Source: Microbacterium sp. SY138 (GTDB taxonomy: Bacteria > Actinomycetota > Actinomycetes > Actinomycetales > Microbacteriaceae). From it: a DNA stretch of 64,000 nt. Positions within the stretch are counted from its first letter, which is position 1; each line of letters begins with the position of its first letter. The notes beneath the pieces are model-generated. The model worked only from the letters and a program-made list of their open reading frames with translations. It did no database searches and had not been told where the DNA came from. Of the stretch, positions 12,754 through 39,284 are shown one piece after another. Both the position numbers and the translations under genes were made by a program. The DNA lies in NCBI RefSeq assembly GCF_039729145.1, contig NZ_CP155793.1, positions 2,356,001 through 2,420,000 on the forward strand. The letters are read 5' to 3'.

Positions 12754-13515
12754 ATGCACAACGTCGTACTCACCGTCGATGTCGATTGGGCACCCGATTG
12801 GGCGATGAAACAGTTACTGGATGTACTCGTGGAGGCTGAGACACCGTCGACGTGGTTCGTCACGCATGAATCTCCGATGCTCGACGTTCTGCGTGAGCAC
12901 CCGACACTCGTCGAGATCGGCGTTCACCCAAACTTCCTCCCGGGCTCCAGCCACGGCGAGAGCCCCGAGGAGGTCATCAGCGAGTGTCTTCGCTTCGCCC
13001 CCGAAGCGCGCACGATGAGGACCCATTGCCTCGTGCAATCGACCCCGATCCTGCAGACGGTCGTGGACGCGAGCCCCATCAGTGTCGACGCAAGCGTCTA
13101 CCTGCGAGACCTCAGCGGGGTTTCTCCTTCGACGCTGCCTCTGGACCATGGACGCAGCCTGACTCGATTCGCTTACGTCTGGGAAGACGACCTCGAGTTC
13201 TTCGCTGAGGAACCCCGCTGGGACGGGCCCCGCTTCATCACGGATCGCGGTACGTCGGATGAGATTACGATCATCGATGTCCACCCGATCCACTTCGCTC
13301 TCAACAGCGCGAGCGTCGGCCCGTATGAGCGCCTCAAAGCCGCCCTGGGCAACATGCGCAACGTGACGGAAGCTGACGCCGCCGAGTTCAGAGGCACGGC
13401 CCCTGGGGCGCGCACTTTCATCCAGTCGATGCTGGAGGCCAAGAACACGCTCGATGCGGAGTTCACGACGCTGTGGAGCCTGGCCGAGTCGAAACGACTC
13501 ACAGACGCACGCTGA
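12754..13515 (+). CDS. WbmS-like polysaccharide deacetylase superfamily protein
   Basis: 253 residues, GGAAGGG Shine-Dalgarno about 7 nt upstream. It starts MHNVVLTVDVDWAPDW, with the paired Asp residues typical of the NodB/deacetylase barrel; EIGVHPNFLPG and a later IIDVHPIHF supply candidate metal and catalytic histidines. This layout matches the WbmS-like branch found in O-antigen clusters rather than classic peptidoglycan deacetylases. No signal peptide is present, so it probably works in the cytoplasm on a nucleotide- or lipid-linked sugar. The specific substrate is unknown. Confidence 0.75.
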   Translation: MHNVVLTVDVDWAPDWAMKQLLDVLVEAETPSTWFVTHESPMLDVLREHPTLVEIGVHPNFLPGSSHGESPEEVISECLRFAPEARTMRTHCLVQSTPILQTVVDASPISVDASVYLRDLSGVSPSTLPLDHGRSLTRFAYVWEDDLEFFAEEPRWDGPRFITDRGTSDEITIIDVHPIHFALNSASVGPYERLKAALGNMRNVTEADAAEFRGTAPGARTFIQSMLEAKNTLDAEFTTLWSLAESKRLTDAR

Positions 13516-13603: not shown

Positions 13604-14566
13604 TCAGATGCGGCGCTGCCTGACGACGGCACCCGCAATGGTCAGCCCAACTCCGAACCCGAGGAATCCGATCATCGACTCATCACCCGAAGCGTCCGCA
13701 AGCTGGAACGGGATGGAGCTCTGAACCACGTTGCCGTAGCCTGCGGAGCGGAAGAGACTGCCTTGCTCTGCGTTCAGGACCTTCTCGACGGCGGTGACCA
13801 CAGTTCTCGATCCCTGATGCACATACCACGAGACATCATCGAGCGAACCGGCCTGGTCGGTCAGGTCCTGGACGACCTCGGCGATGTTGCGCAGCACGAA
13901 CGTGTAGACCGCTCCACCATTCATCGTGAGATGCCCCGACTCGCGGAGCGCATCAGGTGTGATGCAGAGGTCCGCTGCGTGGCCTCCCTCGGATCGGAAG
14001 GTCGAAGCGATGATCTCCCACTCGTGTGCGACGACACCGTCCGGAACGTTGGACAGAGGCGCGCCGCTCACGATGAGCACGCTTGCTCCGTCCGAGAACA
14101 ACGGCGAGACTTTGAGCTCCGACGGGTCGTAGAGCTTCGTGTAGGTGTCAGCGGCGACAAGAAGCACGGTACGCGCGAGCCCCGCGGCGATAATCGCGTC
14201 GACGACGGCCAGTGCGCGGACGAATCCGGTGCACGCGTCATTGATGTCGAGGACGAACGTCTCCTTCTTGAGATCGAGCCGCGCCTGAAGGAGATGTGCG
14301 TTGCCCGGGGCCGTCAAGACACTCGTCGACGAGACATGCACGAGTCCGTCGACCGCGTCCCGCCACCAACCATCGTCGATCTTCTCGATCGACTCGACGG
14401 CAAGATCCATGGCCGAGACGTCGTCCGGTGTGGCGTACAACGTGTGGAACCCGGTCTTGTCCATGAAGTCAGGGCGCACCGGGCCGTACTGTTCGAGAAG
14501 CTCGGCGACATCGATCCTCTCGGAACCAAGCGCGGTCGAAGGCCCGTAGACCCAGAGCTTACTCAA
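13604..14566 (-). CDS. 3-oxoacyl-ACP synthase III (KAS III / FabH-like) of a glycan locus
   Basis: 320 residues. The thiolase-fold Cys-His-Asn triad is intact: C112 in NDACTGF, H250 in WYVHQGSR and N279 in AGYGNVVQSS, nearly the same numbering as FabH (C112/H244/N274). It would condense an acyl-CoA with malonyl-ACP. The gene overlaps the upstream ACP gene by 8 nt, so the ACP is its likely partner. Sitting in a surface-glycan island and divergent from an LpxD-like acyltransferase, it probably makes a special acyl group for a sugar rather than serving bulk fatty acid synthesis (inference). Confidence 0.85.
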   Translation of the reverse strand: MSKLWVYGPSTALGSERIDVAELLEQYGPVRPDFMDKTGFHTLYATPDDVSAMDLAVESIEKIDDGWWRDAVDGLVHVSSTSVLTAPGNAHLLQARLDLKKETFVLDINDACTGFVRALAVVDAIIAAGLARTVLLVAADTYTKLYDPSELKVSPLFSDGASVLIVSGAPLSNVPDGVVAHEWEIIASTFRSEGGHAADLCITPDALRESGHLTMNGGAVYTFVLRNIAEVVQDLTDQAGSLDDVSWYVHQGSRTVVTAVEKVLNAEQGSLFRSAGYGNVVQSSIPFQLADASGDESMIGFLGFGVGLTIAGAVVRQRRI

Positions 14567-14786
14567 TGAAGCCCTCTGTCCTGAGGATGCCCGCGAGCTC
14601 GTCGAAATCCTTGAACGAGGCGAGCGCGTCGATGTCGCTCACGCCGTCGCCGAGGTGGTCGTGGAGGTGCGTGGTGATCTCGAGCTGGTCGAGGGAGTCC
14701 CAGAGACGATCGCTGGGAGCACCGTCGGGCTGCACACCGCCGAGCGCCTCATCGATGAGCGACTTAAGTTCCGCAGATGACATCAC
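14559..14786 (-). CDS. Acyl carrier protein
   Basis: 75 residues with the 4'-phosphopantetheine attachment motif DSLDQLEI (Ser at position 31) and the acidic, helical make-up of ACPs. The start is GTG at 14786 or ATG at 14783; AGGAG at 14796-14800 is better spaced for the GTG. It overlaps the KAS III gene by 8 nt and has its own promoter (TATACT). The usual DSLD surroundings are kept but the rest differs from the housekeeping AcpP, consistent with a dedicated carrier. Confidence 0.85.
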   Translation of the reverse strand: MMSSAELKSLIDEALGGVQPDGAPSDRLWDSLDQLEITTHLHDHLGDGVSDIDALASFKDFDELAGILRTEGFIE

Positions 14787-14833
14787 GACGGCTGACTCCT
14801 CTCAGGCATCGAACTTCTCGACGCACGACACAA

Positions 14834-14839
14834 AGTATA
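14834..14839 (-). promoter_or_regulatory. -10 element (TATACT) for the ACP/KAS III operon
   Basis: TATACT on the minus strand lies about 50 nt upstream of the ACP start, leaving a leader with the AGGAG Shine-Dalgarno. No convincing -35 is visible. It lies back to back with the -10 of the LpxD-like gene. Confidence 0.5.
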
Positions 14840-14875
14840 TCCCTCGGGACTCTCAGAGAGGCGTCGAGGGCCGAA

Positions 14876-14881
14876 TAGAAT
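14876..14881 (+). promoter_or_regulatory. Candidate leaderless -10 hexamer (TAGAAT) for the LpxD-like gene
   Basis: TAGAAT ends 7 nt before the ATG at 14889, with no Shine-Dalgarno. Confidence 0.55.
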
Positions 14882-14888
14882 CACTTAG

Positions 14889-15761
14889 ATGATCACTCAC
14901 GACGACCTCCGCCGCGCTACCGACATAGAAGCCGCAGAGCCATTCGAAGTTGCCGGGCTGGATATGGCAGGCACGGATCCCGGTCGGTCGATTCTCAGCT
15001 TCATCGACGACGCCCGCTTCCTGCCGGAGGCCGCAGCCAACCCTGCCCTCCGCGTCCTCCTGGTCGCGACGCCGCTGGAAACGGATGCACGGGCGGTTCT
15101 TCACGACGTGGTGATCGTCGTCACCGACGATCCCCGTTGGGCGTTCTACTCACTGCACAATCAGGTCGCGCTGACCTCGACGCTCGAGACGGAACCCAGT
15201 GTCATCGCGGACAGCGCCTCGATCCATCCGACAGCGTTCGTCGACCCCATCGGCGTCGAGATCGGCGCGAACGTGATCATCGAGGCCAACGCGACCGTTC
15301 TGCGGTCGGCCCGGATCGGCGCCAACGCCGTGATCAGGGCGGGCGCAGTGATCGGCACCAGCGGATTCGAGCACAAGCGAACGAGCCGCGGCGTGTTGAG
15401 CGTCGTCCACGACGGGGAGACGGTCATCGGCGAAGGGTCCGAGATCGGGTCGCTCACGGTTGTGGGACGTGGCTTCTCTCGTCGCCACACTCGCCTCGGC
15501 GCAGACTGTCGCATCGATTGCAACGTGATGATCGCCCACGGCAGCCAGCTCGGGGAACGCGTGTTCGTTGCCGCGGGTGCGGTCCTGGCAGGAAGCACAG
15601 CAGTCGGAGATGACGTCTGGGTCGGCCCCAACGCGACGCTCATCGACCGGGTCCGGGTCGGCGCGGGTGCACGTATCGGAATCGGGAGCGTGGTCTTTCG
15701 CGAGGTATCTGCCGGCGACCAGGTCCTCGGCAACCCCGCGCGGGTGGTTGCCCGCTCTTAG
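14889..15761 (+). CDS. LpxD-like acyltransferase (left-handed beta-helix, hexapeptide repeats)
   Basis: 290 residues: an N-terminal alpha/beta domain (1 to about 100), then hexapeptide repeats from about 105 (ADSASIHPTAFVDPIG, IGANVIIEANATVL) to the C-terminus. It keeps the LpxD layout: IGTSGFEHKR in the place of the IGxxGF loop and CNVMIAHGSQLGE, where H217 aligns with the catalytic histidine of LpxD (IAHN). LpxD transfers a hydroxyacyl chain from ACP to the amine of a UDP-sugar derivative. Divergent from ACP and KAS III, its likely acyl source. Lipid A itself is not expected in this organism, so the acceptor is unknown. Confidence 0.8.
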   Translation: MITHDDLRRATDIEAAEPFEVAGLDMAGTDPGRSILSFIDDARFLPEAAANPALRVLLVATPLETDARAVLHDVVIVVTDDPRWAFYSLHNQVALTSTLETEPSVIADSASIHPTAFVDPIGVEIGANVIIEANATVLRSARIGANAVIRAGAVIGTSGFEHKRTSRGVLSVVHDGETVIGEGSEIGSLTVVGRGFSRRHTRLGADCRIDCNVMIAHGSQLGERVFVAAGAVLAGSTAVGDDVWVGPNATLIDRVRVGAGARIGIGSVVFREVSAGDQVLGNPARVVARS

Positions 15762-15816: not shown

Positions 15817-17061
15817 CTACCCGGCGCGGTTCGAGCGTGAACCCGTCTGAATCGGTTCCTCCGCGAGCTCCTTCAAGACCTCGAGGTGGCGCCCGGCGAC
15901 GGCATCGATGGTGAAGTTCTGGTCGATGAACGCCTGAGCATTCATCGACACGGCCTCGCGCGTCGCTTCGGGGTTGTCGAGAATCTGATTGATCAGAGCG
16001 GCCAGCGCCACGGGATCGGCTCCGGGATCCTTCGAACTCACGGGCGGAACGATGAACAGTTCTCGCCCGCTCTCCACGACGAGATCGAGGAAGTTGTCCG
16101 GCTCGATCGCCGCGATCACGGGGATACCGGATGCGAGCGCTTCGAGGCTCGCTGTCCCGAACCCACCACCTTCGAGTTCGTGGACTTCGATCTCCGCCGC
16201 AGCGAGATAGTCGGGCACCTCTGCCTGAGGCAGAGCGCCCAGCGCGACGACGGCGTGCTCGACATCGAGCTCAGCCGCGATCTTCAGGAACTCATCGTGG
16301 TAGACCCCGCCGACGACCACGACCAGGGTGTCGGGGTGCTCGACGAGGATCTGCGGCAGAGCGCGAACGAGCGCGATGCGGCTCCGTTGCGGAATCACGT
16401 GTCCGATCGAGACGATGATGCGTTTGCCCGGCTGCCCCAGCTTCGCGATCGCGACGGAGGCATCCCCGCCTCGCATGACGGCGGGATCGATGCCCACCGG
16501 AATGTTCACCTTTCCACTGATACAGCGCGCGTACCGCTTGTCGATGTAGCGATCCATCAGGATGTCCATCACCACGAGCTTCGGCCGATGGACCCGCATG
16601 AGAGGAGCGACGAGCATCCGGTCGGCGACCCCGTAGACGAACGAGTTGAACTTGCTCAACGGGCTTTCCAGCCGGGTGTGAATGCTCAGGAGGGTGGGCA
16701 CACGTCGCTTTCTCGCCCACCATCCACTGAGCCAGGTGAGGTCGAAGAACTGCCCGTGCTGGTGGACGACGTCGGGCGCGAACGCATCGAGCAGTTCGAA
16801 TACACGACGCTTCGCGCTCGGGGAAGAGACGAACCCGATGTCGAAGTTCGCGGCGAACCGCGTCTTGGGCAGGGTCCAGGCGGGAATCCGCACGATCCTT
16901 ATCCCGTCCTTCGTCTCTTCCCGCGGCGCCTCGCCGTATGTCGCGGTGAGCACGAGGACCTCGTGCCCGGCTGCTGCATACTTCTTCGCAAGGTGCTGAG
17001 CGAGATGCGCCGAGCCACCAGGGCGAGGCGGGAAGAAGTTGTTTACGACTGCAATTCTCAT
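15817..17061 (-). CDS. Family 4 glycosyltransferase
   Basis: 414 residues. N-terminal GT-B domain begins MRIAVVNNFFPPRPGGSAHL, with DVVHQHGQFFDL following; C-terminal domain has IIVSIGHVIPQRS and the nucleotide-sugar motif ELEGGGFGTASLEALASGIPVIA, corresponding to the E-x7-E region of GT4 enzymes. The first Glu is in a HELEGGG context rather than the commoner EGFGLxxLE, but the second is intact. Last gene of the flippase/LpxA/glf/Wzm/Wzt operon, so it probably adds a sugar to the same polymer. Sugar donor not predictable. Confidence 0.85.
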   Translation of the reverse strand: MRIAVVNNFFPPRPGGSAHLAQHLAKKYAAAGHEVLVLTATYGEAPREETKDGIRIVRIPAWTLPKTRFAANFDIGFVSSPSAKRRVFELLDAFAPDVVHQHGQFFDLTWLSGWWARKRRVPTLLSIHTRLESPLSKFNSFVYGVADRMLVAPLMRVHRPKLVVMDILMDRYIDKRYARCISGKVNIPVGIDPAVMRGGDASVAIAKLGQPGKRIIVSIGHVIPQRSRIALVRALPQILVEHPDTLVVVVGGVYHDEFLKIAAELDVEHAVVALGALPQAEVPDYLAAAEIEVHELEGGGFGTASLEALASGIPVIAAIEPDNFLDLVVESGRELFIVPPVSSKDPGADPVALAALINQILDNPEATREAVSMNAQAFIDQNFTIDAVAGRHLEVLKELAEEPIQTGSRSNRAG

Positions 17062-17141: not shown

Positions 17142-17876
17142 TCACCCCGAGTGGTCCGCGTTGTACATGTCGAGGACTTCGCCGATCGAGGCGTCGAGGA
17201 CGAGCGCACCCTTGTCGAGGTAGAGTCCCCGAGTGCAGAACCTCCGGAGGTCGCGCTCGTTGTGGCTCACGAAGAAAAGCGTGCGCCCGTCTGCCAGCAA
17301 CTCGTCGATGCGCGTGTAGCACTTCTCACGGAAAGCCTTGTCGCCCACCGCCAGCACCTCGTCGACGAGCAGGATGGGCTCGTCGAGCTGCGAGACGACG
17401 GCGAAGGCGAGTCGGACCTTCATCCCGTTGGAGAGATGCTTGTAAGGCGTGTCCTCGAATCCAGCGAGCTCGGCGAACTCGATGATGCCGTCATAGCGTC
17501 GACTCACCTCTTCGCGTGACATCCCGTGCAGACCCGAGGTCAGACGCACGTTCTCCCGAACCGTGAGATCTCCGACGAACCCCCCGGTGATCTCGATGAG
17601 CGGAGCCACTCCGCCGTTCACCTCGACCGTGCCCTCGTCCGGCAGAAGCACCTTCGCGACCAGACGGAGGAGAGTGGACTTCCCCTGACCGTTGCGCCCG
17701 ACGACACCGATCGACTCCCCCGGTTCGACCGAGAACGTCACGTCGCGGAGTGCCCAGAACTCACCCGGGCGCGAACGCCGAGAAGCACCGGCGAAGAGAT
17801 CCTTGAAGCTGCGGCTGCCGCGCCTGTTGCGACGGAAGTGGACGCCGAGCCCCCGCACTTCGATGGCCGCGCCCAT
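17142..17876 (-). CDS. wzt: ABC transporter ATPase, Wzt-type polysaccharide exporter (short form)
   Basis: 244 residues from the ATG overlapping the permease stop (TGATG); the upstream in-frame extension reads through the permease gene and is rejected. Walker A GRNGQGKST, signature-like HLSNGMKVRLAFAV and Walker B ILLVDEVLAVGDKAF are clear, and the VLAVGD motif is typical of polysaccharide and teichoic acid exporters (Wzt/TagH/RfbE). Unlike the second ATPase at 32295 it lacks a C-terminal substrate-binding domain. With the preceding Wzm it should export the polymer made with UDP-galactofuranose. Confidence 0.9.
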   Translation of the reverse strand: MGAAIEVRGLGVHFRRNRRGSRSFKDLFAGASRRSRPGEFWALRDVTFSVEPGESIGVVGRNGQGKSTLLRLVAKVLLPDEGTVEVNGGVAPLIEITGGFVGDLTVRENVRLTSGLHGMSREEVSRRYDGIIEFAELAGFEDTPYKHLSNGMKVRLAFAVVSQLDEPILLVDEVLAVGDKAFREKCYTRIDELLADGRTLFFVSHNERDLRRFCTRGLYLDKGALVLDASIGEVLDMYNADHSG

Positions 17877-18694
17877 CACAGCTCCTTCAGGACGGGTCGT
17901 TCCAGGCTCCGGAATGTCCAGATGCCCAGTCCGAGGATCAACAGACTCATGACGACGCTGATGGTCAGGGTGAACGGGTTCCATTGATCAGGGAAGAAAG
18001 GCATGCGATAGAGCATCATGATTCCCGCAAGAGGGTTGAATGCCCCGAGCGTCTGGAAGATGCCGGGAAGATCGGTGACGTTGTAGATGATCGGTGTCGC
18101 ATAGAACATCGCGCGCAGAACCAGTGCCGTCGTGCGTTCGAGGTCGACGAAGAGCACGCAGAGCGGGGCAATGAGCAGGCCCAACCCGACGAGGAGAACG
18201 GTCTGCAGAATCATCGCCACCGGCATCCACAGGATGCCCCAGCCGACGTGCACGGTTCGCCCCGGATCCAGCTCGACGAACAGGTTCACGACGATGAAGA
18301 GCACCAGTACCGGCAGCGAGAACAAGTACTCGATGCCCTTGCTGAGCACGATCCGATTCACCCAGATCGAGCGTGGGATGGCGGTGGAGCGCACCAGCCG
18401 GGCGTCCTTCTTGAACGCACGGGTGAAGTCGGACACCGAAGCGTTAAACCACACCCACGGGAGCAGCGCGCTGATCAGGAAGATGATGTAGGGCTCTTCG
18501 CCGACGTCGCGGTTGAACACCTGTGTGAACACGAACCAGTAGATCGCACTCATCACGAGCGGATCCAGCACCGACCACAGATACCCGAGGAGGCTGGTCG
18601 AGTAGCGGACCTTCAGGTCACGGGACGACAGCAGCCACAACGAATGCAGATATCGCCGGGGCGTCCCGGGCGCCCCGACAGCAGCGTGACTCAC
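17876..18694 (-). CDS. wzm: ABC transporter permease, Wzm-type polysaccharide exporter
   Basis: 272 residues from the GTG giving VSHAAVGAPGTPRRYLHSLW; the upstream frame runs into glf and is Ser/Arg-rich shadow sequence. The ABC2-type permease layout is clear: amphipathic LWLLSSRDLKVRYSTSLLG segment, LWSVLDPLVMSAIYW, and about six transmembrane helices. It starts 10 nt after glf and its stop overlaps the ATPase start, so export and UDP-galactofuranose formation are tightly co-expressed. Confidence 0.9.
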   Translation of the reverse strand: MSHAAVGAPGTPRRYLHSLWLLSSRDLKVRYSTSLLGYLWSVLDPLVMSAIYWFVFTQVFNRDVGEEPYIIFLISALLPWVWFNASVSDFTRAFKKDARLVRSTAIPRSIWVNRIVLSKGIEYLFSLPVLVLFIVVNLFVELDPGRTVHVGWGILWMPVAMILQTVLLVGLGLLIAPLCVLFVDLERTTALVLRAMFYATPIIYNVTDLPGIFQTLGAFNPLAGIMMLYRMPFFPDQWNPFTLTISVVMSLLILGLGIWTFRSLERPVLKEL

Positions 18695-18704
18695 GATGTC
18701 GAGT

Positions 18705-19883
<1,179 letters not shown>

Positions 19884-19902: not shown

Positions 19903-20553
19903 TCAGCCGAGCAGCCGGGACAGGACATCGTCGAATGCTGTGCCGTCCCGATAGCGGCGATCGAGATCCTCGGCATCAGCGATCGAGATGCCGGAACGCT
20001 GCATGCCGACCACGTTCGCACCCACGACCCGCGCGGGCACGCCGTAGACCTTGGCGAAGGCGGGAACATCGGCGGTCACGACCGAACCCATTCCCACCAT
20101 CGCTCCCACGCCCACGGTGCGGAACTGATGAACCGCCACGCCCAGACCGAGGTTCGCCCGCTCGCCGACCGTGACGTGACCTGCGAGCAACACGCTGGAC
20201 GCGAGCGTCACGCCGTTCCCGATGTTGCCGTCATGCGCGACGTACACCTGGTTCATGATGAAGGCGCCGTCGCCGATCTCGGTCGGTCGCTGGGAACCCT
20301 GATGGACCTGCGCCGCCTCGCGGATGACGTTCTGCGACCCGATCAGAAGGCCAGCTCCGTACGAATCCTCCTCGTCGCGAGGATGGGCGAACGATCTGAC
20401 CTCCGGCGGTGCGCCGAGGACGACACCCGCACCGATCCAGTTGTCGTCGCCGAGGCGCACCCCGGGATGGATGACGACCCCGGGCCCGACGACGTTTCCG
20501 CTGCCGAGTTCGACCCCGCGGGAAACATGTGCGCTCGGATGGATCGTGTTCAC
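19903..20553 (-). CDS. LpxA-like acyltransferase (hexapeptide repeats)
   Basis: 216 residues with hexapeptide repeats from the first residue (MNTIHPSAHVSRGVELGSGN). It retains the LpxA pattern: NVIREAAQVHQGSQR for the IREFxxINRGT segment, NQVYVAHDGNIGNGVTLASS with H107 in the position of LpxA catalytic His125, AGHVTVGE, and GMQRSGIS near the C-terminus in place of GLKRRGF. It is shorter than typical LpxA (about 260), lacking most of the C-terminal helical domain. Start overlaps the upstream flippase-like gene by 4 nt. A divergent DegT and Gfo/Idh pair may make its amino-sugar substrate. Confidence 0.8.
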   Translation of the reverse strand: MNTIHPSAHVSRGVELGSGNVVGPGVVIHPGVRLGDDNWIGAGVVLGAPPEVRSFAHPRDEEDSYGAGLLIGSQNVIREAAQVHQGSQRPTEIGDGAFIMNQVYVAHDGNIGNGVTLASSVLLAGHVTVGERANLGLGVAVHQFRTVGVGAMVGMGSVVTADVPAFAKVYGVPARVVGANVVGMQRSGISIADAEDLDRRYRDGTAFDDVLSRLLG

Positions 20554-21683
20554 GAGGAGGAATCCTTCTTCACGGCTGCGTCATCCTCGCCGCGCACAGG
20601 CGCTGCAGGGTGCTCATGTGAGGGAGCTTCGTGCTCCCCGCTCAGGTCGAGGGTGCTGATCGACCCTTCGTCACGTAGTCGACGGCGCATGATGATGACG
20701 AAGAGCACCGCGACCCCGGCCGCTGCCACGTCGCCGACGGTGAACATCATCCGCGACACGGCGCTCACGGCGGCCGCCTGCGGGACGGTGACGATCGTCG
20801 CCATCGCTGCGACGAGCACGGCCTCGCGCACCCCGATCCCCGACGGAAGGATGAAGGCGAACAGGCTGAGCGAGAACCCGATCGCCATCGCACCCGTCAA
20901 CAACACCACGGTCTGCGGGTCGGGATCCGCCAGGGAGTTGACCAGCAATGTCAGATGCAAGCCGTAGCAGATGTACGACCCGATGGAGGTGCTGAGGGCG
21001 ATGAGCACCGTCGACACCTTGACCCGATGATCGAGCGGCGGTCGCCGGAACAGTTTCAGAACGAGGGAAGCTAACCAGGTCATCACTGCGGGATGCAGGC
21101 AGATCAGCCCGACCGGAAGCAGTGCGAACAACCACAGCAACTCGGGCTGCTCCTGGGAGAGCAGCGGAACGGCCAGCGCGCCGAGGATGAGGGAGGCCAC
21201 CACGCCGACGCCCGCAGAGTAGAGAGCGGTGATGAGCACGCGCGGCCTCGAGACGTTGTACTGGCGCCCGAGTTCCATCTGCATGACGTACGACCACACC
21301 GATCCCGGCACGTACTTCCCGAGTTGTCCGACCAGGAGGATCTGGGCCGCTCGAAGAAATGGCACCCTGTCCTCACCGAGACCGTTCAGGATGGCGATCC
21401 AACTGATCGTGCCGAGCGCGAGGCCTGCGAGCACGAGCAGGAACGACAGAACAGCAGACTGCCAGGCGATCAGCTTGATGGCGGCCGAGACCTCGTCCCA
21501 CTGCGAGATGAGATAGTACGCAGCAAACCCGAGGACCAGTGCCAGCAGCACATAGCGCAGGATCAGAAGCACCCAGGAGCGGGCGCTGCGGGATTCAGCG
21601 ATGAGGATTCCCTCTTTCTTTGCAAGCAAGGCGGTGACGCCGGACATATGGGCTTCCGCCGTGTGAACTGGGGGCACGGTCAC
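20550..21683 (-). CDS. Flippase-like membrane protein (lysylphosphatidylglycerol synthase TM family)
   Basis: 377 residues with about eight transmembrane helices and the family segments GQLGKYVPGSVWSYVMQME and FILPSGIGVREAVLV (P-G-G-x-G-x-R-E type), which mark the LPG_synthase_TM / AglD-like group. Members act with polyprenyl-linked glycans or lipid synthesis; several lie in surface-glycan loci. Charged C-terminal tail of about 45 residues is cytoplasmic. First gene of a six-gene operon, overlapping the LpxA-like gene. An internal start at residue 13 is possible. Confidence 0.82.
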   Translation of the reverse strand: MTVPPVHTAEAHMSGVTALLAKKEGILIAESRSARSWVLLILRYVLLALVLGFAAYYLISQWDEVSAAIKLIAWQSAVLSFLLVLAGLALGTISWIAILNGLGEDRVPFLRAAQILLVGQLGKYVPGSVWSYVMQMELGRQYNVSRPRVLITALYSAGVGVVASLILGALAVPLLSQEQPELLWLFALLPVGLICLHPAVMTWLASLVLKLFRRPPLDHRVKVSTVLIALSTSIGSYICYGLHLTLLVNSLADPDPQTVVLLTGAMAIGFSLSLFAFILPSGIGVREAVLVAAMATIVTVPQAAAVSAVSRMMFTVGDVAAAGVAVLFVIIMRRRLRDEGSISTLDLSGEHEAPSHEHPAAPVRGEDDAAVKKDSSS

Positions 21684-21731: not shown

Positions 21732-22838
21732 ATGATACCAATCACCGTCGTCGAGTTCGGAGCCGAGGAAGAGCGTCTCGTGCTCGAGGTCCTCCGCTCC
21801 GGTCGAGTCGCCCAGGGTCCGCTCGTCGCGGAGTTCGAGAAGCGCTTCGCCGAACTCACGGGCGTTCGACACGCGATCGCGGTGAACAACGGCACTACTT
21901 CGCTCATCGCATCCCTGCAGTGCCTCGACCTCGAGCCCGGCGACGAGGTCATCACGAGCCCCTTCACCTTCGCGGCGACACTGAACGCGATCCTTGAGGC
22001 CGGCGCGACCGCACGCTTCGCGGACATCTCCGAGGAAGACTTCAACATCACGGCTGCCTCGATCGAGTCGCGCCTGAGCGACCGCACCAAGGTGATCATG
22101 CCCGTCCACATCTTCGGCCAGATCGCCGAGATGGAAGCCATCTCCGGCATCGCGAGAGACCGCGGCCTCCGAATCCTCGAGGACGCAGCACAGGCCCACG
22201 GAAGCAAGCTCGGCGACCAGGCGGCCGGCAGCTACGACATCGGCTCGTTCTCCTTCTACGCGACGAAGAACCTGACCACCGGCGAAGGCGGGATGGTCAC
22301 CACGAACGATGACGAACTCGCCGACCGCCTGCGCATCCTCCGCAACCAGGGGATGCGCGCCCGCTACGACTACGCCATGCTCGGACAGAACTATCGTCTG
22401 ACCGACCTCCAGGCGGCTCTGGTGCTGCCGCAGCTCGATCGCTACGACGGCATCGTCGAGACGCGCAGCGACAATGCCGCGTACCTCAGCGCCGGTCTCG
22501 CCGACGTCAAGGGGGTCATCACCCCTGGAGAGCTTCCCGGTCGCCGACACGTGTGGCACCAGTACACGATTCGTGTCACTCCCGACGCTGCGGTGACGCG
22601 AGACGAGTTCGTCGAGCGAATGAACGACGCGGGAATCGGCGCGGGCGTGTACTACCCGAGACTCGTGTTCGACTACGACGCATACCGCAACCGCCCCGAT
22701 GTGGTGATCGAGCCGACGCCGGTCGCGGAGATGCTCGCGGCCCAGGTCGTCTCACTCCCCGTGCACAATCACCTGACACGCGAGCAGCTCGACACCATCA
22801 TCGCAACAGTCCGCACCGTCGCTGAAGGAGAGTCATGA
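21732..22838 (+). CDS. DegT/DnrJ/EryC1 sugar aminotransferase (GnnB/WbpE-like)
   Basis: 368 residues. PLP-dependent sugar aminotransferase with catalytic K179 in SFYATKNLTTGEGG, phosphate-binding NNGTTSL, and the ILEDAAQAHGS aspartate that contacts the pyridine nitrogen. It would transaminate a keto-sugar nucleotide. The next gene, overlapping by 4 nt, is a Gfo/Idh dehydrogenase that could create that keto group. This dehydrogenase/aminotransferase pair resembles GnnA/GnnB or WbpB/WbpE (3-amino-3-deoxy sugar formation). A TATGCT -10-like element is at 21691-21696. Confidence 0.88.
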   Translation: MIPITVVEFGAEEERLVLEVLRSGRVAQGPLVAEFEKRFAELTGVRHAIAVNNGTTSLIASLQCLDLEPGDEVITSPFTFAATLNAILEAGATARFADISEEDFNITAASIESRLSDRTKVIMPVHIFGQIAEMEAISGIARDRGLRILEDAAQAHGSKLGDQAAGSYDIGSFSFYATKNLTTGEGGMVTTNDDELADRLRILRNQGMRARYDYAMLGQNYRLTDLQAALVLPQLDRYDGIVETRSDNAAYLSAGLADVKGVITPGELPGRRHVWHQYTIRVTPDAAVTRDEFVERMNDAGIGAGVYYPRLVFDYDAYRNRPDVVIEPTPVAEMLAAQVVSLPVHNHLTREQLDTIIATVRTVAEGES

Positions 22839-23791
22839 GCCAGCCTCGTATTGCACTCGTCGGAGCCGGCACGATGGGGTCGTATCACGCCCGCGTCGTC
22901 GCCTCCTCCGATCGGGCCTCGTTGGCGCGAGTGATCGACGGCCGACGCTCCGTCGGCGAGGCAGTCGCAACGAAGTACGACTCCGAGTGGGCACCCGAGC
23001 TGGGCGACCTCGACGACATTGATGCTGTGATCGTCGCCGCGTCCACCGAGTCGCACGACGCCCTCGCCCGACAGGTCCTGGCTGCAGGCAAGCCCCTCCT
23101 CGTCGAGAAACCGGTCGTCAACGGCTACGAGCGCACGCAGGAAATCCTCGCTCTCTCGGAAGCCGCCGGCGTGCCGATCTTGTGCGGTCTGCTCGAGCGG
23201 TTCAATCCCGCTGTTCTCACCGCTCGCCACCTGATCAACGAACCGTTGCACGTCACCTCCGTGCGCCACTCCCCCTACGCCCCGCGCATTCGAACCGGTG
23301 TCGCATGGGATCTCCTCATCCACGACGCCGACCTGGCGATCAGCCTGCTGGGTGGAGAACCCACCAAGATCGAGGGAAGCCTCGGCTACTTCCACCCGGA
23401 CTCCGAGTCCGGCGCGGAGGATGTCGCGACGGCTACGCTCGGGTTCAGCGGAGGTCAGGTCGCACAGTTGTCAGCAAGCCGTATCGGCCAGCGCAAGGAA
23501 CGGAGCCTGCTGATCCACGAACTCGATCGTCTGGTGGAGATCGACCTCCTTCGTCGCGACGTCACCGTCTACCGGCATGTCTCAGCAGATGCCGTAGACG
23601 TGGACGGACGGGGTTACCGCCAGCAGACAACGATCGACATTCCCGAACTCGTGACCTCGCGAGAGCCGCTCGCGGCGCAGTTCGACCACTTCGTCGACCT
23701 CGTGAACGGAGACGCCGACGCCGACGCCGAGCGAAGCTCGATCGCTCCCGCGCACATGGTGATCGCTGCCCTTCTCGCAGGCCGTGGGTAA
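22835..23791 (+). CDS. Gfo/Idh/MocA oxidoreductase (UDP-sugar 3-dehydrogenase-like)
   Basis: 318 residues, ATG overlapping the aminotransferase stop. Rossmann ALVGAGTMGSYHARVV, then VIVAASTESHDALARQ and the family EKPV segment (LLVEKPVVNGY), and DLLIHDADLAISLLG with the H-D pair typical of the second catalytic region. The short length and context fit UDP-N-acetylglucosamine 3-dehydrogenase-type (GnnA-like) enzymes, which make a 3-keto sugar for transamination. Sugar identity is inferred only. Confidence 0.85.
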   Translation: MSQPRIALVGAGTMGSYHARVVASSDRASLARVIDGRRSVGEAVATKYDSEWAPELGDLDDIDAVIVAASTESHDALARQVLAAGKPLLVEKPVVNGYERTQEILALSEAAGVPILCGLLERFNPAVLTARHLINEPLHVTSVRHSPYAPRIRTGVAWDLLIHDADLAISLLGGEPTKIEGSLGYFHPDSESGAEDVATATLGFSGGQVAQLSASRIGQRKERSLLIHELDRLVEIDLLRRDVTVYRHVSADAVDVDGRGYRQQTTIDIPELVTSREPLAAQFDHFVDLVNGDADADAERSSIAPAHMVIAALLAGRG

Positions 23792-25223
23792 GGATCTCCC
23801 GAGAAGAGGCGTCGTGGCGGCGCGGAGGGCGATCCCCCTCGTAGTTCTCTCGTTGTTCATCTCGCTTTTCGGGGCGGGGCTGTTCACCATCGCGCAGGAC
23901 GGACATCCGCTCTCCGTCATCGACGAGCACATCCACTTCGACACGGCGGTCAAGGCGGGGCAGGGCGAGTTGCCCTACCGGGGCATGCTTCTCGGCCAGG
24001 AACTCCTGGATGAGTGGGCTTGCGGCGTCGGGCACGAAGGAGGAGACATCCCCTACCCGTGCGGCGACCCCAGAGTCACGCCCGACGCTATTCCATCGGG
24101 TAAGTACAGCACAGGCTACGGGCACTATCCCACCTACTTCTTCGCAGCGGCGGGGTTCCAGAAGATCTTCGGCGCAATCACCGGCTCCGAGGATCTCCTC
24201 CAGGGCTTTCGCGTCTTCAGCGCCCTCACGCTTTTCCTCGGTGTCGTGGCGACCGCCGTCTTCGGCTGGCTGCTCGGCTTGCGGGGTGCCCGGTTGATCG
24301 CCGTCACCGCTGTGCCGATCGCGACCTCGATGGTCGTCTTCGCCGGCACGATCGTGAACCCGACGTCGACATCCGTACTCGCAGGGGCACTGATCGGGGG
24401 TACCGGGCTGCTATGGATGCGGCGAGGCAGGGGCTTCGTCTGGTTCGCGCTCTCCGTGGCGTTCGCGTCGTCCATCGCAGTCACCGTCGTGCTGCCGGCT
24501 GGTGGCTTCGGCCTCGCAATGCTCGTCGCACTCATCTGGAAGCGAGCCGCGTTCTTCCGCGAGCTGGAGTGGCACCCACGATGGTGGCAACTGGGAACCC
24601 TCTCAGCGCTGGTCCTGCTGCCGATCATCGCCTGGGGTCGATTCATCGCTGCGAGAGCAACGGTGTCGAACGAAGCGCTGTATGGCTTCCTCCCCCCCAG
24701 CGGCAAGAAGGACATTCTGGTCGGGGCGACTCTGGAGCTCTCTCTGCTGCACACGCCCTGGCGAGAGACTCACGGGATAAAGAGCCAGCCTGAGAGCTTC
24801 ATCGGGCGGCTCGCGCACGCCTTCTCCGAAGGAGCGCCCATCTGGATCGGAACGCTCATCTTCGGTGGCATCGTCGTCGCACTGCTGCTCCAGCGATGGT
24901 ACAAGTTCAGCACCGTCGACGCTCTCCTGCCGCGCGCGCAGGTCACTGGTGCCCGGGGCTGGGCACCGACCGCCTTCGACGCCTCGGTGAATCTCGTCGC
25001 CCTCGGGACCCTCGCGACCATCATCGTGTATCCGCCGGCGTTGCGGATCATGAACTGGATGAACTTCGGGTTCGACTTCCCGATCGTCGATCGCTACTCC
25101 AGCGCGTTCACACCGCTGCTCGCGATGCTCGCACTGCTGATGATACGCAACCGCTGGTTCGCGATGCTACTCGCCGTCATCGCCGTGCTCACCGGTCTCG
25201 GTACGGTGTCAGGCGCGATCTGA
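23784..25223 (+). CDS. Polytopic membrane protein of unknown function (DUF2142-like layout)
   Basis: 479 residues from a GTG overlapping the upstream stop. About ten transmembrane helices; between the first two is an extracytoplasmic loop with VIDEHIHFDTAVKAGQGELP and four cysteine/glycine-rich positions, similar to the D-E-x-x-H-F opening of DUF2142 and GT-C-type membrane proteins. This suggests a lipid-linked sugar transferase or polymer-modifying enzyme, but no catalytic assignment is safe. The 3' end overlaps the convergent acetyltransferase gene by 15 nt. Confidence 0.75.
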   Translation: MGKDLPRRGVVAARRAIPLVVLSLFISLFGAGLFTIAQDGHPLSVIDEHIHFDTAVKAGQGELPYRGMLLGQELLDEWACGVGHEGGDIPYPCGDPRVTPDAIPSGKYSTGYGHYPTYFFAAAGFQKIFGAITGSEDLLQGFRVFSALTLFLGVVATAVFGWLLGLRGARLIAVTAVPIATSMVVFAGTIVNPTSTSVLAGALIGGTGLLWMRRGRGFVWFALSVAFASSIAVTVVLPAGGFGLAMLVALIWKRAAFFRELEWHPRWWQLGTLSALVLLPIIAWGRFIAARATVSNEALYGFLPPSGKKDILVGATLELSLLHTPWRETHGIKSQPESFIGRLAHAFSEGAPIWIGTLIFGGIVVALLLQRWYKFSTVDALLPRAQVTGARGWAPTAFDASVNLVALGTLATIIVYPPALRIMNWMNFGFDFPIVDRYSSAFTPLLAMLALLMIRNRWFAMLLAVIAVLTGLGTVSGAI

Positions 25224-25661
25224 ACGGGATTTCGTGACAGGCTCGAAGCTCGGATCTGCAGGCTCGGACAAGTCGACAGTACCGATCACCCGCGCAGGTA
25301 CGCCCGCGACGATGCTCCGCGCAGCGACGGGCCCCGTGACCACTGCACCGGCACCGATCACCGCCTCATCACCGATCGTGACGCCCATGTTGATCACGGC
25401 GTTCGCGCCGATGAACACGCGGTCGCCAATGGCCACGGGCTGCCGGTCGACCTGATCGTACGCGCGACCCGAAACGCAGCGCTTCGCGCTCGAATGGGTG
25501 TAGATGTGCACTCCGGAGGAGATATCGCATCCTTCGCCGATCGACAGTCCGCCCGACCCGTCGATGAGCGTGAATGCGCCGATCCAGGTGCCCGCACCGA
25601 TGCGCGGCTCGCCGATGATCCAGGCATTTGGATTGTAGGGGTTGTCCGGAAGGCTGGTCAT
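25209..25661 (-). CDS. Hexapeptide-repeat acetyltransferase (sugar O/N-acetyltransferase)
   Basis: 150 residues from the ATG giving MTSLPDNPYNPNAWIIGEP. It has left-handed beta-helix repeats (IGAGTWIGAFTLID, IGEGCDISSGVHIYTH, IGANAVINMGVTIG, IGAGAVVT) and the VIYTHSS-type histidine of sugar acetyltransferases, then the AGVPARVIG terminus. Probably acetyl-CoA dependent. Part of an operon with the epimerase and aminotransferase upstream, consistent with acetylation of an amino sugar. Overlaps the stop of the convergent membrane protein gene. Confidence 0.85.
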   Translation of the reverse strand: MTSLPDNPYNPNAWIIGEPRIGAGTWIGAFTLIDGSGGLSIGEGCDISSGVHIYTHSSAKRCVSGRAYDQVDRQPVAIGDRVFIGANAVINMGVTIGDEAVIGAGAVVTGPVAARSIVAGVPARVIGTVDLSEPADPSFEPVTKSRSDRA

Positions 25662-25743
25662 GGTCGCTCCTCTGCGCCGAATGAACGAACTGGGGGCGCG
25701 ACGGCGTGGCCATCGCGCCCCCATCTCGTAGGGTGAACCCGCG

Positions 25744-26670
25744 TCAGGAGTTCTGCACGAGTCGGGTCATGCCCGACACGACGTCGATCTCGGCTTCGAA
25801 CCCGAGCACGTCCTTCGCGCGCGTCGTGTCTGCCGCACGACGCGAGACGAGCACCGGACGCGGATTGAACTGCGGCTCCACGTCAGCTCCGACCGCGGCG
25901 ATCAGGATGCGCGCGAGGTCGGCGACCGTCGTATCGATTCCGGTTCCGACATTGACCGGAACGTTGGCCTTCTCCGAGGTGAGGGCGAGCACCACAGCAC
26001 GGGCGATGTCCTTGACATGGATGAAGTCCATGGACTGCTTGCCTTCGCCGTCGATGACCGGCGCCTCACCGTTCTTGAGGCGGTTGACGAAGTGGTTGAT
26101 GACCGACGTGTAGTAGGCCGTCGTCTTCTGTCCCTCGCCGTACACGTTGAAGAAGCGCAGCGCGATCCACGGGAGATTCGTCTGACGCTGGTAGTAACCG
26201 AGCATGTCCTCGGCAGTGCGCTTACCGATGCAGTACGGCGTGAGGGGGTTGAGGCGGTCATCCTCGTGCATCGGGAGCTTCTCCGGGTCGCCGTACACCG
26301 ATGCGCTGGACGCGATCACGATGCGCTTCGCGCCGAGCTCGGATGCGGAGGCGATCACGTTGTGCATGCCGACGACGTTGGTGTCGAACGAAGCGTACGG
26401 ATCAGCGACAGACTTGTTGATGGAGTCCGCGGCGAGGTTGATGACGTAGTCATATCCCTCCATGGCGTTCCGAACGGCTGCGCCGTTGCGGATGTCCTGA
26501 TCGATGACGTCAACACGGCCCGTCTTCGTGAGTTCGTTCGCTGCGTCGCGGTCACCGCGCCACATGTTGTCGAAGATGCGAACGGTCCATCCCTCGTCGA
26601 GCAGTCGCTGGACCACGTGAAGCCCGATGAACCCGGCGCCTCCGACGACGAAGACCTTCTTGTCACTCAT
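25744..26670 (-). CDS. NAD-dependent nucleotide-sugar epimerase/dehydratase
   Basis: 308 residues from the ATG giving MSDKKVFVVGGAGFIGLHV, with AAGGAG about 10 nt upstream. Extended SDR: GxxGxxG, INLAADSINKSV, ASSASVYGDPE, catalytic YCIGK (YxxxK), FFNVYGEGQ and a C-terminal substrate domain. Resembles UDP-glucose/GlcNAc 4-epimerases and dehydratases. Between the acetyltransferase and DegT genes it should act on the same nucleotide sugar. Exact reaction unknown. Confidence 0.88.
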   Translation of the reverse strand: MSDKKVFVVGGAGFIGLHVVQRLLDEGWTVRIFDNMWRGDRDAANELTKTGRVDVIDQDIRNGAAVRNAMEGYDYVINLAADSINKSVADPYASFDTNVVGMHNVIASASELGAKRIVIASSASVYGDPEKLPMHEDDRLNPLTPYCIGKRTAEDMLGYYQRQTNLPWIALRFFNVYGEGQKTTAYYTSVINHFVNRLKNGEAPVIDGEGKQSMDFIHVKDIARAVVLALTSEKANVPVNVGTGIDTTVADLARILIAAVGADVEPQFNPRPVLVSRRAADTTRAKDVLGFEAEIDVVSGMTRLVQNS

Positions 26671-26708
26671 TGAATCGATACTCCTTTGGTAAGTGGAAAC
26701 AGCCCGCG

Positions 26709-27839
26709 TCAACGCGCGAGCGGGATGGCTTCGGCAAGGACCTCAACGACACGATCCACGTCGTCGAACGTCAGATTCGCGTGCATCGGGATCGCGAGAT
26801 GACGCGTGAAAAGGTCTGCAGACACCGGCAGTGAACCCTCGAACCCGTACACAGGCTGGATGTGCGATGCGTAGGTTCCGAAGTTGCACTGCACACCGCT
26901 GTTGCGGAGATGCGCGGCGACGAGCCCACGATCGATATCAGCATCGAGCGTCACCACGTACGACTGCCACGGGTGAGTGCGGTCGTCCAGGGCGACCGGA
27001 GCGGTGACTCCCTCGAGGCCACGAAGACGCTCCGCGTAGGCGGCGGCGATCTCGCCGCGGCGAGCCACGAGCCCAGGAAGCCGATCGAGCTGCGCGAGCA
27101 TGATCCCCGCGGAGATGTCGGAGAGACGGTAGTTGTAGCCCGCTTCGTCGAAGGACGGGATCGGGAGGTCCGAGCTCCCCTCGCGCGACAGGGCGGGCGC
27201 GATGCCGTAGGTGTGGAGCTTTCGTGCGCGCTCGGCGAGGTCTGAACGGTCGGTGACGAGGGCTCCGCCTTCGCCGGCGGTGATGCCCTTTCGCCCGTGG
27301 AAGCTGAAGGTCGCCACGTCCGCAAGGCTTCCCGCGGGCCGCCCCTTGTAGGAGGCTCCGGCAGAACAGGCCGCGTCCTCCATGAGGAACAAGCCGTGCT
27401 TGTCGGCGATGGCGCGAAGTTCGTCGTAATCCGCAGGCTGACCGAACACGTCGACGGCGAGGATGCCCACGGTGCGCTCGGTGATCGACGCCTCGACTGC
27501 CGCCGGATCCACCGACCAGATGTCAGGACGGATGTCCGCGAACACCGGCTTCGCCCCCGTCCACATGACGGAGTGTCCGGTGGCAGGGAAGGTGTAGTCG
27601 CCGACGATGACCTCATCCCCCGGCTTGACGCCGAGGGCATCGAGCCCGAGGTGGAGCGCAGATCCGCAGTTGCTCGTGGCGAGTGCGTGCGCGGTGCCGA
27701 CCGCTTCCGCGAAGCGCCCTTCGAACTCACGGCACGTCGGTCCTGCTCCGGAAAGCCATCCCGAATCGAACACGCGCTGAACCGCCGCGAGCTCTTCTGG
27801 TCCGACAGTCGGTTCGCCGAGAGCGACGGTGTGCGCCAT
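26709..27839 (-). CDS. DegT/DnrJ/EryC1 sugar aminotransferase (second copy)
   Basis: 376 residues, AAAGGTG Shine-Dalgarno 4-5 nt upstream. Catalytic K184 in TFSFHGRKGITAGEGG, phosphate-binding SNCGSALH, and LFLMEDAACSAGASY. Clearly diverged from the other DegT at 21732, so it probably serves a different amino sugar. It is the first gene of the operon with the epimerase and acetyltransferase, a set that could build an N-acetylated amino sugar nucleotide. Confidence 0.88.
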   Translation of the reverse strand: MAHTVALGEPTVGPEELAAVQRVFDSGWLSGAGPTCREFEGRFAEAVGTAHALATSNCGSALHLGLDALGVKPGDEVIVGDYTFPATGHSVMWTGAKPVFADIRPDIWSVDPAAVEASITERTVGILAVDVFGQPADYDELRAIADKHGLFLMEDAACSAGASYKGRPAGSLADVATFSFHGRKGITAGEGGALVTDRSDLAERARKLHTYGIAPALSREGSSDLPIPSFDEAGYNYRLSDISAGIMLAQLDRLPGLVARRGEIAAAYAERLRGLEGVTAPVALDDRTHPWQSYVVTLDADIDRGLVAAHLRNSGVQCNFGTYASHIQPVYGFEGSLPVSADLFTRHLAIPMHANLTFDDVDRVVEVLAEAIPLAR

Positions 27840-27968
27840 CGTTCACCTTTCGCTTGAAGTGGGGTTCGGAGAGTTCACGGCACTCGGAGCCGTAGGATCG
27901 AAACGTGGTGCGGGCACCAGAATCGCCACCGCCATCCTACCCGCTTGTTGTCGTCAAGGAGATTTACC

Positions 27969-31425: not shown

Positions 31426-32298
31426 TCAGCCGACGGTTGATCTCACCTGACGAAACCGCGCTCCGTCGATGAACCCGCGTATGCCAGCGCGAATCTTCGG
31501 GCCCCGTTCGCGCTCGCAGAGCAGCATCTTGATCCAGGCCTTCGTCGCGTATGCAGCGTCGTCCCAGAACCAACGGCCGAAGCCGTACCGTCGGATCATG
31601 ATCATGCGGTTACGCGTCATGTAGTACTGACGCATGGGCGAGTAGTTCGAGAGGTAGATCCGTCTGCCGAGGAAAGTAGACGGCACCGAGTCGCCGAACC
31701 GATGGTCGAGTACCGTGTCGTACACCTTGACCACGCGGTAACCCGCTCGGCGTGCTCGGAGCGAAATGTCGTGATCGACGTAGTCGATGAAGAGGCGTTC
31801 ATCGTGAAGCCCGATCTTCTCCAGCGCCGCCCGGGAGAAGAGCGCACCCGAGGAGATCACTGCCACCTGCTCCTCGACACCCACCCGGTTCTCGCCGTCG
31901 TACAAGTGGCCGGTCTCCTCGGCACGCAGCGCCGGCCCGGCGATGGCGACGGGACGGCCGGCAGGCGAGAAGGCACCGATGAGCGCCTCAAGCATCCCGT
32001 CTGCCACAGTGCTGTCCTGGTCGAAGACCCACACATAGTCGAATCCTGCGCCGAGAGCCTGCCTCATCCCCGCGTTGAATCCTGCGGCGACGCCGACATT
32101 CTTCGTCTGGTCCAGGACGGTCAGGGCGTCACCGTCGCGTAACGGGGCGAGGAGCTTCTCAGTGCCTTCGTCGTCCGGCGAGTTGTTCACCAGGTAGATG
32201 TGGTCTGCCTGGGCGGCGAGCTTCGCAAGGTTGTCGCGGATGCTCGATGACGGACGGTAGGCCAGGACAACAGCGGCGACCTTCGGCGGTGGCGTCAT
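31426..32298 (-). CDS. Family 2 glycosyltransferase, rhamnosyltransferase-like
   Basis: 290 residues, ATG overlapping the Wzt stop by 4 nt. GT-A domain: VAAVVLAYRPSSSIRDNL, HIYLVNNSPDD, NVGVAAGFNAGMRQAL and the metal motif WVFDQDSTV, then LFIDYVDHDISLRAR. This combination, notably VFDQDS and FIDYVDHD, is that of RfbF/WbbL-like rhamnosyltransferases. Adjacent RgpF genes and the rml set support dTDP-rhamnose as donor. Confidence 0.85.
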   Translation of the reverse strand: MTPPPKVAAVVLAYRPSSSIRDNLAKLAAQADHIYLVNNSPDDEGTEKLLAPLRDGDALTVLDQTKNVGVAAGFNAGMRQALGAGFDYVWVFDQDSTVADGMLEALIGAFSPAGRPVAIAGPALRAEETGHLYDGENRVGVEEQVAVISSGALFSRAALEKIGLHDERLFIDYVDHDISLRARRAGYRVVKVYDTVLDHRFGDSVPSTFLGRRIYLSNYSPMRQYYMTRNRMIMIRRYGFGRWFWDDAAYATKAWIKMLLCERERGPKIRAGIRGFIDGARFRQVRSTVG

Positions 32299-33506: not shown

Positions 33507-33509
33507 GGC

Positions 33510-34412: not shown

Positions 34413-34489
34413 GGGGGTTTCCTTTTTCGGGTGTTCGGGTCGTCCCTGAGCCTATCCTCAGCAGAACCTGTGCCTCGGCGCGGCGCGCC

Positions 34490-39266: not shown

Positions 39267-39284
39267 GATCACTAGTCTCCCTGA

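Follow-up and report, generated by a model that had tools for sequence, protein, structure and literature searches.

Within a 64,000-nucleotide stretch of the Microbacterium sp. SY138 genome (positions 2,356,001-2,420,000 of a 3.92 Mb single-contig genome; this whole stretch is called the window), we describe a block of four genes encoding a ketoacyl-acyl carrier protein synthase III (KAS III), a small acyl carrier protein (ACP), an LpxD-like N-acyltransferase and a WbmS-like polysaccharide deacetylase. With modest confidence, we favor the reading that this block is a dedicated N-acylation module, which would deacetylate and then reacylate a nucleotide-linked amino sugar that enters an exported surface glycan.

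A dedicated KAS III and carrier protein beside an LpxD-like gene

A sequence-only reading of this DNA had singled out the same four open reading frames, and each was found where that reading had placed it. Since GC-rich DNA makes the length of a frame no proof of a gene (the longest frame in 200 mononucleotide shuffles of 3.1 kb reached 396 amino acids), the genes were taken as real on the grounds of homology and conserved synteny. The KAS III scored above the Pfam cut-offs for both ACP_syn_III (60 bits, cut-off 24) and ACP_syn_III_C (29.6 bits, cut-off 26.6), and its triad of C112, H250 and N279, intact as the earlier reading had said, did not vary across the 27 sequences aligned, its own included. 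Its score lay below the curated cut-off of the housekeeping FabH family TIGR00747 (101.6 versus 292.1 bits). The expected 8-nt overlap between the ACP and KAS III genes was confirmed; the D30-S31-L32 motif of the carrier was invariant in all 16 aligned sequences (again counting its own), no Pfam or NCBIfam family matched it, and its structural model contained four helices with a mean pLDDT of 88.

Housekeeping FabH and AcpP are encoded elsewhere in the genome (C1:1695-1696 kb), and this FabH is only 27% identical to the KAS III of the block across 220 residues, which argues that the KAS III and ACP are dedicated rather than housekeeping proteins. One further KAS III-family match in the genome (C1:1433800) scored 28.1 bits. 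At E 1e-40 the KAS III was matched in one of 295 genomes of its genus, namely the genome of the window itself, and scores above 400 bits were obtained in 4 of 398 Microbacteriaceae genomes. This rarity, together with a GC content per 2 kb of 62-66% across 10-44 kb of the window versus 67-72% in the flanking DNA, is consistent with a glycan locus that can be exchanged.

The LpxD-like gene is divergent from the ACP-KAS III pair across a gap of 102 nt, and its H217, which the earlier reading had regarded as a catalytic-type residue, aligned with H239 of E. coli LpxD and was the same in all 20 sequences aligned. In Foldseek comparisons, the top 25 rows for this protein were all LpxD, with matches spanning both the N-terminal domain and the left-handed helix. 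The WbmS-like gene converges on the KAS III gene, as described before, and its product matched PF22537 at E 7.9e-49, while a profile of five relatives matched the solved Bordetella WbmS (3hft) at 1.6e-40.

Recurrence of the block in Microbacteriaceae

The same block was present in Microbacterium maritypicum MF109 with 99-100% identity per protein. Sought in other genomes, as the sequence-only reading had proposed, the four-gene set recurred in Agromyces and in Microbacterium sp. STN6. In Agromyces (L007), the order of family 4 glycosyltransferase (GT4), LpxD-like, ACP, KAS III and WbmS genes was as in the window, with Epim2/DegT2 and Gfo/Idh-DegT1 genes near the block. In STN6 (L008), genes for a nucleotide-sugar dehydrogenase, Gfo/Idh, DegT, a hexapeptide transferase, WbmS, LpxD-like, ACP and KAS III formed one contiguous run, which looks like a full Wbp pathway with the module after it, the names WbpA/B/E/D being our own reading of these genes. 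The KAS III/ACP overlap, again 8 nt, and the divergence from the LpxD-like gene were alike in the three loci.

A survey of 398 Microbacteriaceae genomes (G000 being the SY138 genome) gave KAS III matches in 388, of which 15 were retained at >160 bits and the rest taken as housekeeping FabH and similar proteins. LpxD-like searches gave 33 matches in 30 genomes, and six genomes were retained at ≥183 bits; most of the dropped rows (≤114 bits) were at the same places as LpxA-like matches. Both retained proteins occurred together in four genomes, from four genera (p 1.9e-5 by a hypergeometric statistic that treats genomes as independent, with no phylogeny correction). WbmS was found in five genomes, three of which also had the LpxD-like protein (p 1.9e-5) and three the KAS III (p 4.2e-4). 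The three genomes with both WbmS and LpxD-like genes held them in one block in only two cases (G000, G008); in G367 the WbmS gene lies with a formyltransferase gene on a separate contig, outside the LpxD-like block. Across 16 KAS III loci (the window, L007-L010 and 11 second-tier genomes, the near-identical L006 being left out), a DSL-motif carrier was encoded within ~1.5 kb of the KAS III in every case, as WDSL in 15 and as FDSL in L010. Five of the 11 second-tier loci (L102, L103, L107, L111 and L114) have in addition an SDR-type (short-chain dehydrogenase/reductase) gene beside the KAS III/carrier pair.

Predicted deacetylases lie with predicted N-acyl-adding enzymes

WbmS-like genes were found with N-acyl-adding enzymes in 6/6 loci, three with the LpxD-like/KAS III block (window, L007, L008) and three adjoining a formyltransferase gene (L134-L136, called by Pfam in L134 and by 70-77% identity in L135 and L136). 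At the level of sequence, this pairing supports the earlier suggestion that the deacetylase may free the amine first. The stricter idea that WbmS is always paired with an LpxD-like enzyme was dropped, since G367, G386 and G032 have WbmS with formyltransferases.

Beside four more distant LpxD-like genes (L102, L104-L106) stood a second, deacetylase-like family carrying HDxD, GH..LH and SSHEP motifs, with members 64-72% identical across BLAST alignments. The members scanned gave nothing significant in Pfam, NCBIfam or PDB. Compared with the WbmS profile on wider alignments, the family matched in the region of DxD...GxH at E 1.7e-5 with a probability of 78.5; an earlier comparison on smaller alignments had given E 0.38. 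We read this family, too, as a putative deacetylase. A deacetylase or deacetylase-like gene was present in the LpxD-like block in all seven Microbacteriaceae loci (window, L007, L008, L102, L104, L105 and L106). Relatives of the second family were also found beside an LpxD-like gene in Sphingomonas (L142:9767-10519) and beside a formyltransferase gene in L136:12531-14196. Another is encoded on a plasmid of the archaeon Haloprofundus (L138:4100-4798), ~4 kb from an LpxD-like gene.

An LpxA-like gene in a probable diamino-sugar pathway

The proposal of a dedicated amino-sugar N-acylation cassette in a surface-glycan locus, apart from general fatty-acid synthesis (FabH and AcpP being encoded elsewhere), was supported in part and was incomplete in that it missed an LpxA-like gene and the 3-amino-sugar genes of the window. 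The LpxA-like protein fell below the NCBIfam LpxA cut-offs (167 versus 226 and 152.7 versus 231 bits). Its H107 aligned with the HD-motif histidine of P. aeruginosa LpxA; the catalytic His of E. coli LpxA is H125. Among solved structures the closest to it is 8e62, which bears the title of an N-acetyltransferase acting on a diacetamido-dideoxy sugar. The DegT aminotransferase of the window matched perosamine synthetases in the PDB (240 bits) with WbpE behind them (181.5 bits), and the best NCBIfam match of the Gfo/Idh oxidoreductase was UDP-GlcNAc 3-dehydrogenase, at 114 bits far under the cut-off of 450.

LpxA-like genes occurred in 30 of the 398 genomes, and in four of the seven loci viewed (L117-L120) they were divergent from DegT and Gfo/Idh genes 60-66% identical to those of the window. 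At E 1e-15, L112 and L121 had a DegT gene several kb distant and no Gfo/Idh gene, and L116 had neither. The DegT, Gfo/Idh and LpxA-like genes probably form a self-contained pathway to a UDP-2,3-diacylamino sugar, in which the LpxA-like enzyme likely uses acetyl. Addition of a fatty acyl chain by this enzyme was set aside on account of the title of 8e62 and of its occurrence with DegT/Gfo-Idh in G044, G315, G055 and G178, where no KAS III exceeded 160 bits.

Proposed pathway

In the pathway that we propose, the KAS III would make a 3-oxoacyl group on the small ACP encoded with it, and a general or unlinked reductase might convert this group to 3-hydroxyacyl. The Gfo/Idh dehydrogenase, DegT aminotransferase and LpxA-like transferase would make a UDP-2,3-diacylamino sugar, from which the WbmS-like deacetylase would remove an N-acetyl group, most simply the original 2-N-acetyl. 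The LpxD-like enzyme would then transfer a new acyl chain, probably a short one, to the amine so exposed, and the linked ABC transporter would export the glycan. We infer all of these reactions, the acyl chain, the acylated nitrogen and the donor (ACP or coenzyme A (CoA)); the short chain is a guess by likeness to the viosamine island described below, and the 2-N-acetyl group is taken as the target of WbmS by analogy with VimE.

The division of labor follows from the transferases already present. Because the fresh 3-amine in STN6 has its own hexapeptide transferase, whose counterpart in the window is by our reading the LpxA-like gene in the role of 3-amine transferase, the LpxD-like enzyme is left for the second amine. 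Since the fresh amines in both the window and STN6 appear to have their own transferases, we assign deacetylation to the WbmS-like enzyme and reacylation to the LpxD-like one.

Comparison with known systems

The viosamine island of P. syringae (vioA, vioS, vioB, vioR and acp) combines a KAS III, an ACP, an acetyltransferase and an aminotransferase; vioS and acp are proposed to supply the acyl group, and the product is a 3-hydroxybutyryl-type amide on the flagellin glycan (PMC3927599). KAS III, ACP, N-acyltransferase and aminotransferase genes likewise occur together in the window locus. The likeness to this island and to the P. aeruginosa PAK glycosylation island lies in a dedicated KAS III, an ACP, a sugar acyl- or acetyltransferase and an aminotransferase within a surface-glycan island. 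The viosamine island has a 213-aa VioB, its own reductase vioR, no deacetylase among the seven genes listed and a Gram-negative flagellin as acceptor, whereas in the Gram-positive glycan locus of the window the transferase is LpxD-type with two domains, a deacetylase is present and the 64 kb yielded no reductase.

The Wbp/Vim pathway of Porphyromonas gingivalis and Tannerella forsythia is described as making a Wbp-type 2,3-diamino sugar, which the CE4-type VimE is proposed to deacetylate at 2-N before transfer by VimA; VimE is argued to take the C-2 acetyl because removal at C-3 would undo the work of WbpD (PMC7468200). The window resembles it in deacetylation followed by attachment of a different group to the amine. 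VimA, a putative N-acetyltransferase, has FemAB-type matches, and the group it transfers is serine or glycine, in contrast to the LpxD-like enzyme with its own KAS III and ACP. Bordetella WbmS belongs to an O-antigen locus that has a diacetamido uronic acid as its backbone sugar (PMC3849452); the window deacetylase is of the same family, and the likeness is drawn on the deacetylase only and not on partner enzymes.

Early lipid A biosynthesis proceeds through 3-N-acylation, deacetylation and N-2 acylation. The GnnA/GnnB lipid A pathway, in which gnnA and gnnB are given as the 3-dehydrogenase and aminotransferase genes (PMC7663294), shares this order of logic with the pathway proposed for the window, which also has LpxA-like and LpxD-like sequences. 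Unlike lipid A biosynthesis, the window has a WbmS-like enzyme instead of LpxC, no LpxC or LpxB found, a glycan-export context and sub-cut-off LpxA and LpxD scores. By analogy, the cassette would work like the supply line of the viosamine island joined to the deacetylate-and-reacylate step of Wbp/Vim, with an LpxD-type transferase, in a Gram-positive locus.

No such actinobacterial set is described in the literature searched, which leaves out most subscription papers, and nothing relevant was found there on LpxD-like or LpxA-like proteins in Gram-positives or on acylated glycans of Microbacterium and other actinobacteria. The sequence-only reading, which knew of no actinobacterial equivalent, stands to this extent; the viosamine island and Wbp/Vim do supply Gram-negative precedents.

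Opposing evidence and alternative explanations

Several observations weigh against a deacetylate-then-reacylate module with its own acyl supply. The LpxD-like protein scored under the NCBIfam LpxD cut-offs (130.9 versus 207 and 107.4 versus 242.5 bits), and the C-terminal helices of LpxD are missing, the model having no helix of ≥4 residues between residue 95 and the end of the protein at 290. This C-terminal helical extension of LpxD binds ACP. Use of acyl-ACP, which the sequence-only reading had carried over from LpxD, is therefore not simply transferable, and the donor could be CoA. The predicted fold of the carrier protein matches ACPs weakly (best Foldseek E 0.14, none <0.001, with ACP named in 6/10 top titles). 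Queried by tblastn at E 1e-8 with the reductases of two relatives, the 64 kb window, L007, L009 and L010 gave no match, and in STN6 the sole match (33%) was 3.6 kb off; one has to suppose either that the product is 3-oxoacyl or that an unlinked reductase acts on it. The same queries found matches in L102, L103, L107, L111, L114 and L141. Our gene maps show no LpxD-like gene with the KAS III and ACP genes of Alpinimonas and of several second-tier loci. In Alpinimonas (L009:7560-10999), DegT and NeuB-family genes adjoin the ACP and KAS III genes, a set that possibly concerns an N-acylated nonulosonic acid.

The remaining opposing points favor a different assignment, in which the LpxD-like enzyme acylates a fresh amine in the manner proposed for VioB (a 3-amine from Gfo/Idh and DegT or a 4-amine from the second epimerase/DegT pair) and the WbmS-like enzyme serves another step. 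In Limimaricola (L139), dehydrogenase, Gfo/Idh, LpxD-like and DegT genes stand in a row, with the LpxD-like gene at the place of WbpD and no annotated deacetylase or KAS III nearby. A Pontibrevibacter plasmid (L137:11633-15910) carries ACP, LpxD-like (annotated hypothetical), hypothetical, KAS III, FdtA/QdtA and DegT genes in one run with no recognisable deacetylase, perhaps a cassette for an N-acylated 3-amino-6-deoxy sugar. Judged by where they lie, the LpxD-like genes of both these loci would serve a fresh 3-amine. On B. glumae pBGF3 (L141), vioA lies with KAS III, ACP, SDR and acetyltransferase genes, and in G367, G386 and G032 the WbmS gene follows genes of the second epimerase/DegT type, a type also present in the window (25744-27839). 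Against this assignment, a hexapeptide transferase gene stands beside each aminotransferase pathway of the window (19903-20553 and 25209-25724) and beside Gfo/Idh-DegT in STN6, and the LpxD-like block includes a deacetylase or deacetylase-like gene in 7/7 Microbacteriaceae loci. We regard acylation of a fresh amine as unlikely, though a serious competitor.

These plasmid loci come from 224 plasmid records with KAS III matches, of which the surroundings of three were viewed, and 62 with LpxD-like matches, of which four were viewed (L137, L138, L139 and L142). A deacetylase-like gene adjoined the LpxD-like gene in one of these four, lay ~4 kb off in another and was not seen in two. The Deinococcus plasmid locus (L140), viewed for its KAS III match, had no sugar-acylation set. 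The Pontibrevibacter plasmid is alphaproteobacterial and typed conjugative.

Distinctly less probable is that the LpxD-like protein is a plain CoA-dependent N-acetyltransferase, with the KAS III and ACP serving some other step in the glycan by making a lipid or acyl group of a separate kind. The protein ends in GNPARVV as VioB does, a C-terminus resembling those of CoA-dependent sugar N-acetyltransferases, it lacks the C-terminal helices, its best single PDB sequence match was VioB (64.9 bits versus 59.9 for LpxD), and G047 and G151 have LpxD-like genes without such a KAS III. Set against these points are the conservation of the block with KAS III and ACP in three lineages, the co-occurrence of KAS III in 4/6 LpxD-like genomes and the full two-domain LpxD fold. 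Membership in the KAS III family would also suit ordinary fatty-acid synthesis, the possibility that the sequence-only reading had itself raised against its proposal, and we rejected this as very improbable given the separate FabH and AcpP, the low identity between the two KAS III proteins and the single E 1e-40 match in the genus. True lipid A biosynthesis in a Gram-positive, for which LpxA-like and LpxD-like genes in one locus might speak, is next to impossible and was rejected, as the sequence-only reading had expected, since neither LpxC nor LpxB was matched in the genome at E 0.001 and both Lpx-like proteins scored under the curated cut-offs.

Surrounding genes

The genes of the block and its neighbors are listed in Table 1. 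The hexapeptide transferase at 25209-25724 is probably the acyl-group enzyme of the adjoining epimerase/aminotransferase pathway. With a DegT aminotransferase, an epimerase and a flavin (FAD) oxidoreductase, it makes up a second amino-sugar set (25209-29159), whose epimerase, aminotransferase and oxidoreductase have relatives 65-83% identical near the KAS III block of Agromyces (L007). A second glycan-export, rhamnan-type set adjoins the first at 31426-41755 and includes Wzt with a C-terminal domain, an ABC-2 permease, two RgpF-like proteins (the second named by its similarity to the first) and rml genes. Glf, this Wzt, the permease and the rml genes round out the surface-glycan locus, which seems to make two glycans or one composite glycan. 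The 885-aa protein encoded at 41811-44468 has nine matches to the LGFP repeat, and ~220 of its residues are duplicated exactly within it.

Table 1 Genes of the candidate N-acylation block and its surroundings (window positions)
Feature	Position	Strand	Evidence
WbmS-like polysaccharide deacetylase	12754..13515	+	PF22537 166.6 bits, cut-off 27
KAS III, TTG start	13604..14566	-	Pfam above cut-off, C112/H250/N279
Dedicated ACP, 75 aa	14559..14786	-	Predicted phosphopantetheine site S31 in WDSL
LpxD-like N-acyltransferase, two domains, H217	14889..15761	+	NCBIfam LpxD best match, 130.9 bits
GT4 glycosyltransferase, adjoins LpxD-like gene	15817..17061	-	Partner in Agromyces 73% identical
ABC-type glycan exporter, ATPase and permease	17142..18826	-	PF00005, PF01061; mechanical open reading frame starts
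UDP-galactopyranose mutase (Glf)	18705..19850	-	PF03275 271 bits, cut-off 26.3
LpxA-like transferase, probable 3-N-acyl/acetyltransferase of diamino-sugar pathway	19903..20553	-	NCBIfam LpxA 167 bits
LPG-synthase-type membrane protein	20550-21683		
DegT-family sugar aminotransferase (GnnB/WbpE-like)	21732..22838	+	PF01041 396 bits
Gfo/Idh/MocA oxidoreductase, UDP-GlcNAc 3-dehydrogenase-like (GnnA/WbpB-like)	22835..23791	+	PF01408
Short hexapeptide (left-handed-helix) transferase	25209..25724	-	PF14602 and PF00132 above cut-off
Second epimerase/DegT aminotransferase pair	25744-27839		Beside hexapeptide transferase 25209-25724

Implications

A bolder reading, which we hold as a tentative and rather doubtful possibility, is that the reactions of lipid A synthesis take place in their usual order in a monoderm actinobacterium (3-amination, 3-N-acylation by the LpxA-like enzyme, deacetylation by the WbmS-like one in place of LpxC, and reacylation by the LpxD-like one with its own KAS III and ACP) and give a mixed diacylamino sugar for a surface glycan, and also that the deacetylate-reacylate unit is a general plug-in combining two deacetylase families with LpxD-like or formyl transferases, by which bacteria would swap the N-acyl groups of wall sugars like O-antigens.

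If the N-acylation module proposed here is real, Gram-positive surface glycans can bear made-to-order acyl groups supplied by a private KAS III/ACP pair, chemistry that in the literature read is described for a Gram-negative flagellin glycan. Glycan analysis would then have to watch for unusual N-acyl groups, which harsh deacylation can lose or mask, and the genes of the block would provide markers for sequence-based prediction of N-acyl variation. The block would also offer a lipid-A-like step outside an outer membrane in which the choice of donor and chain length by LpxD-type enzymes could be studied.

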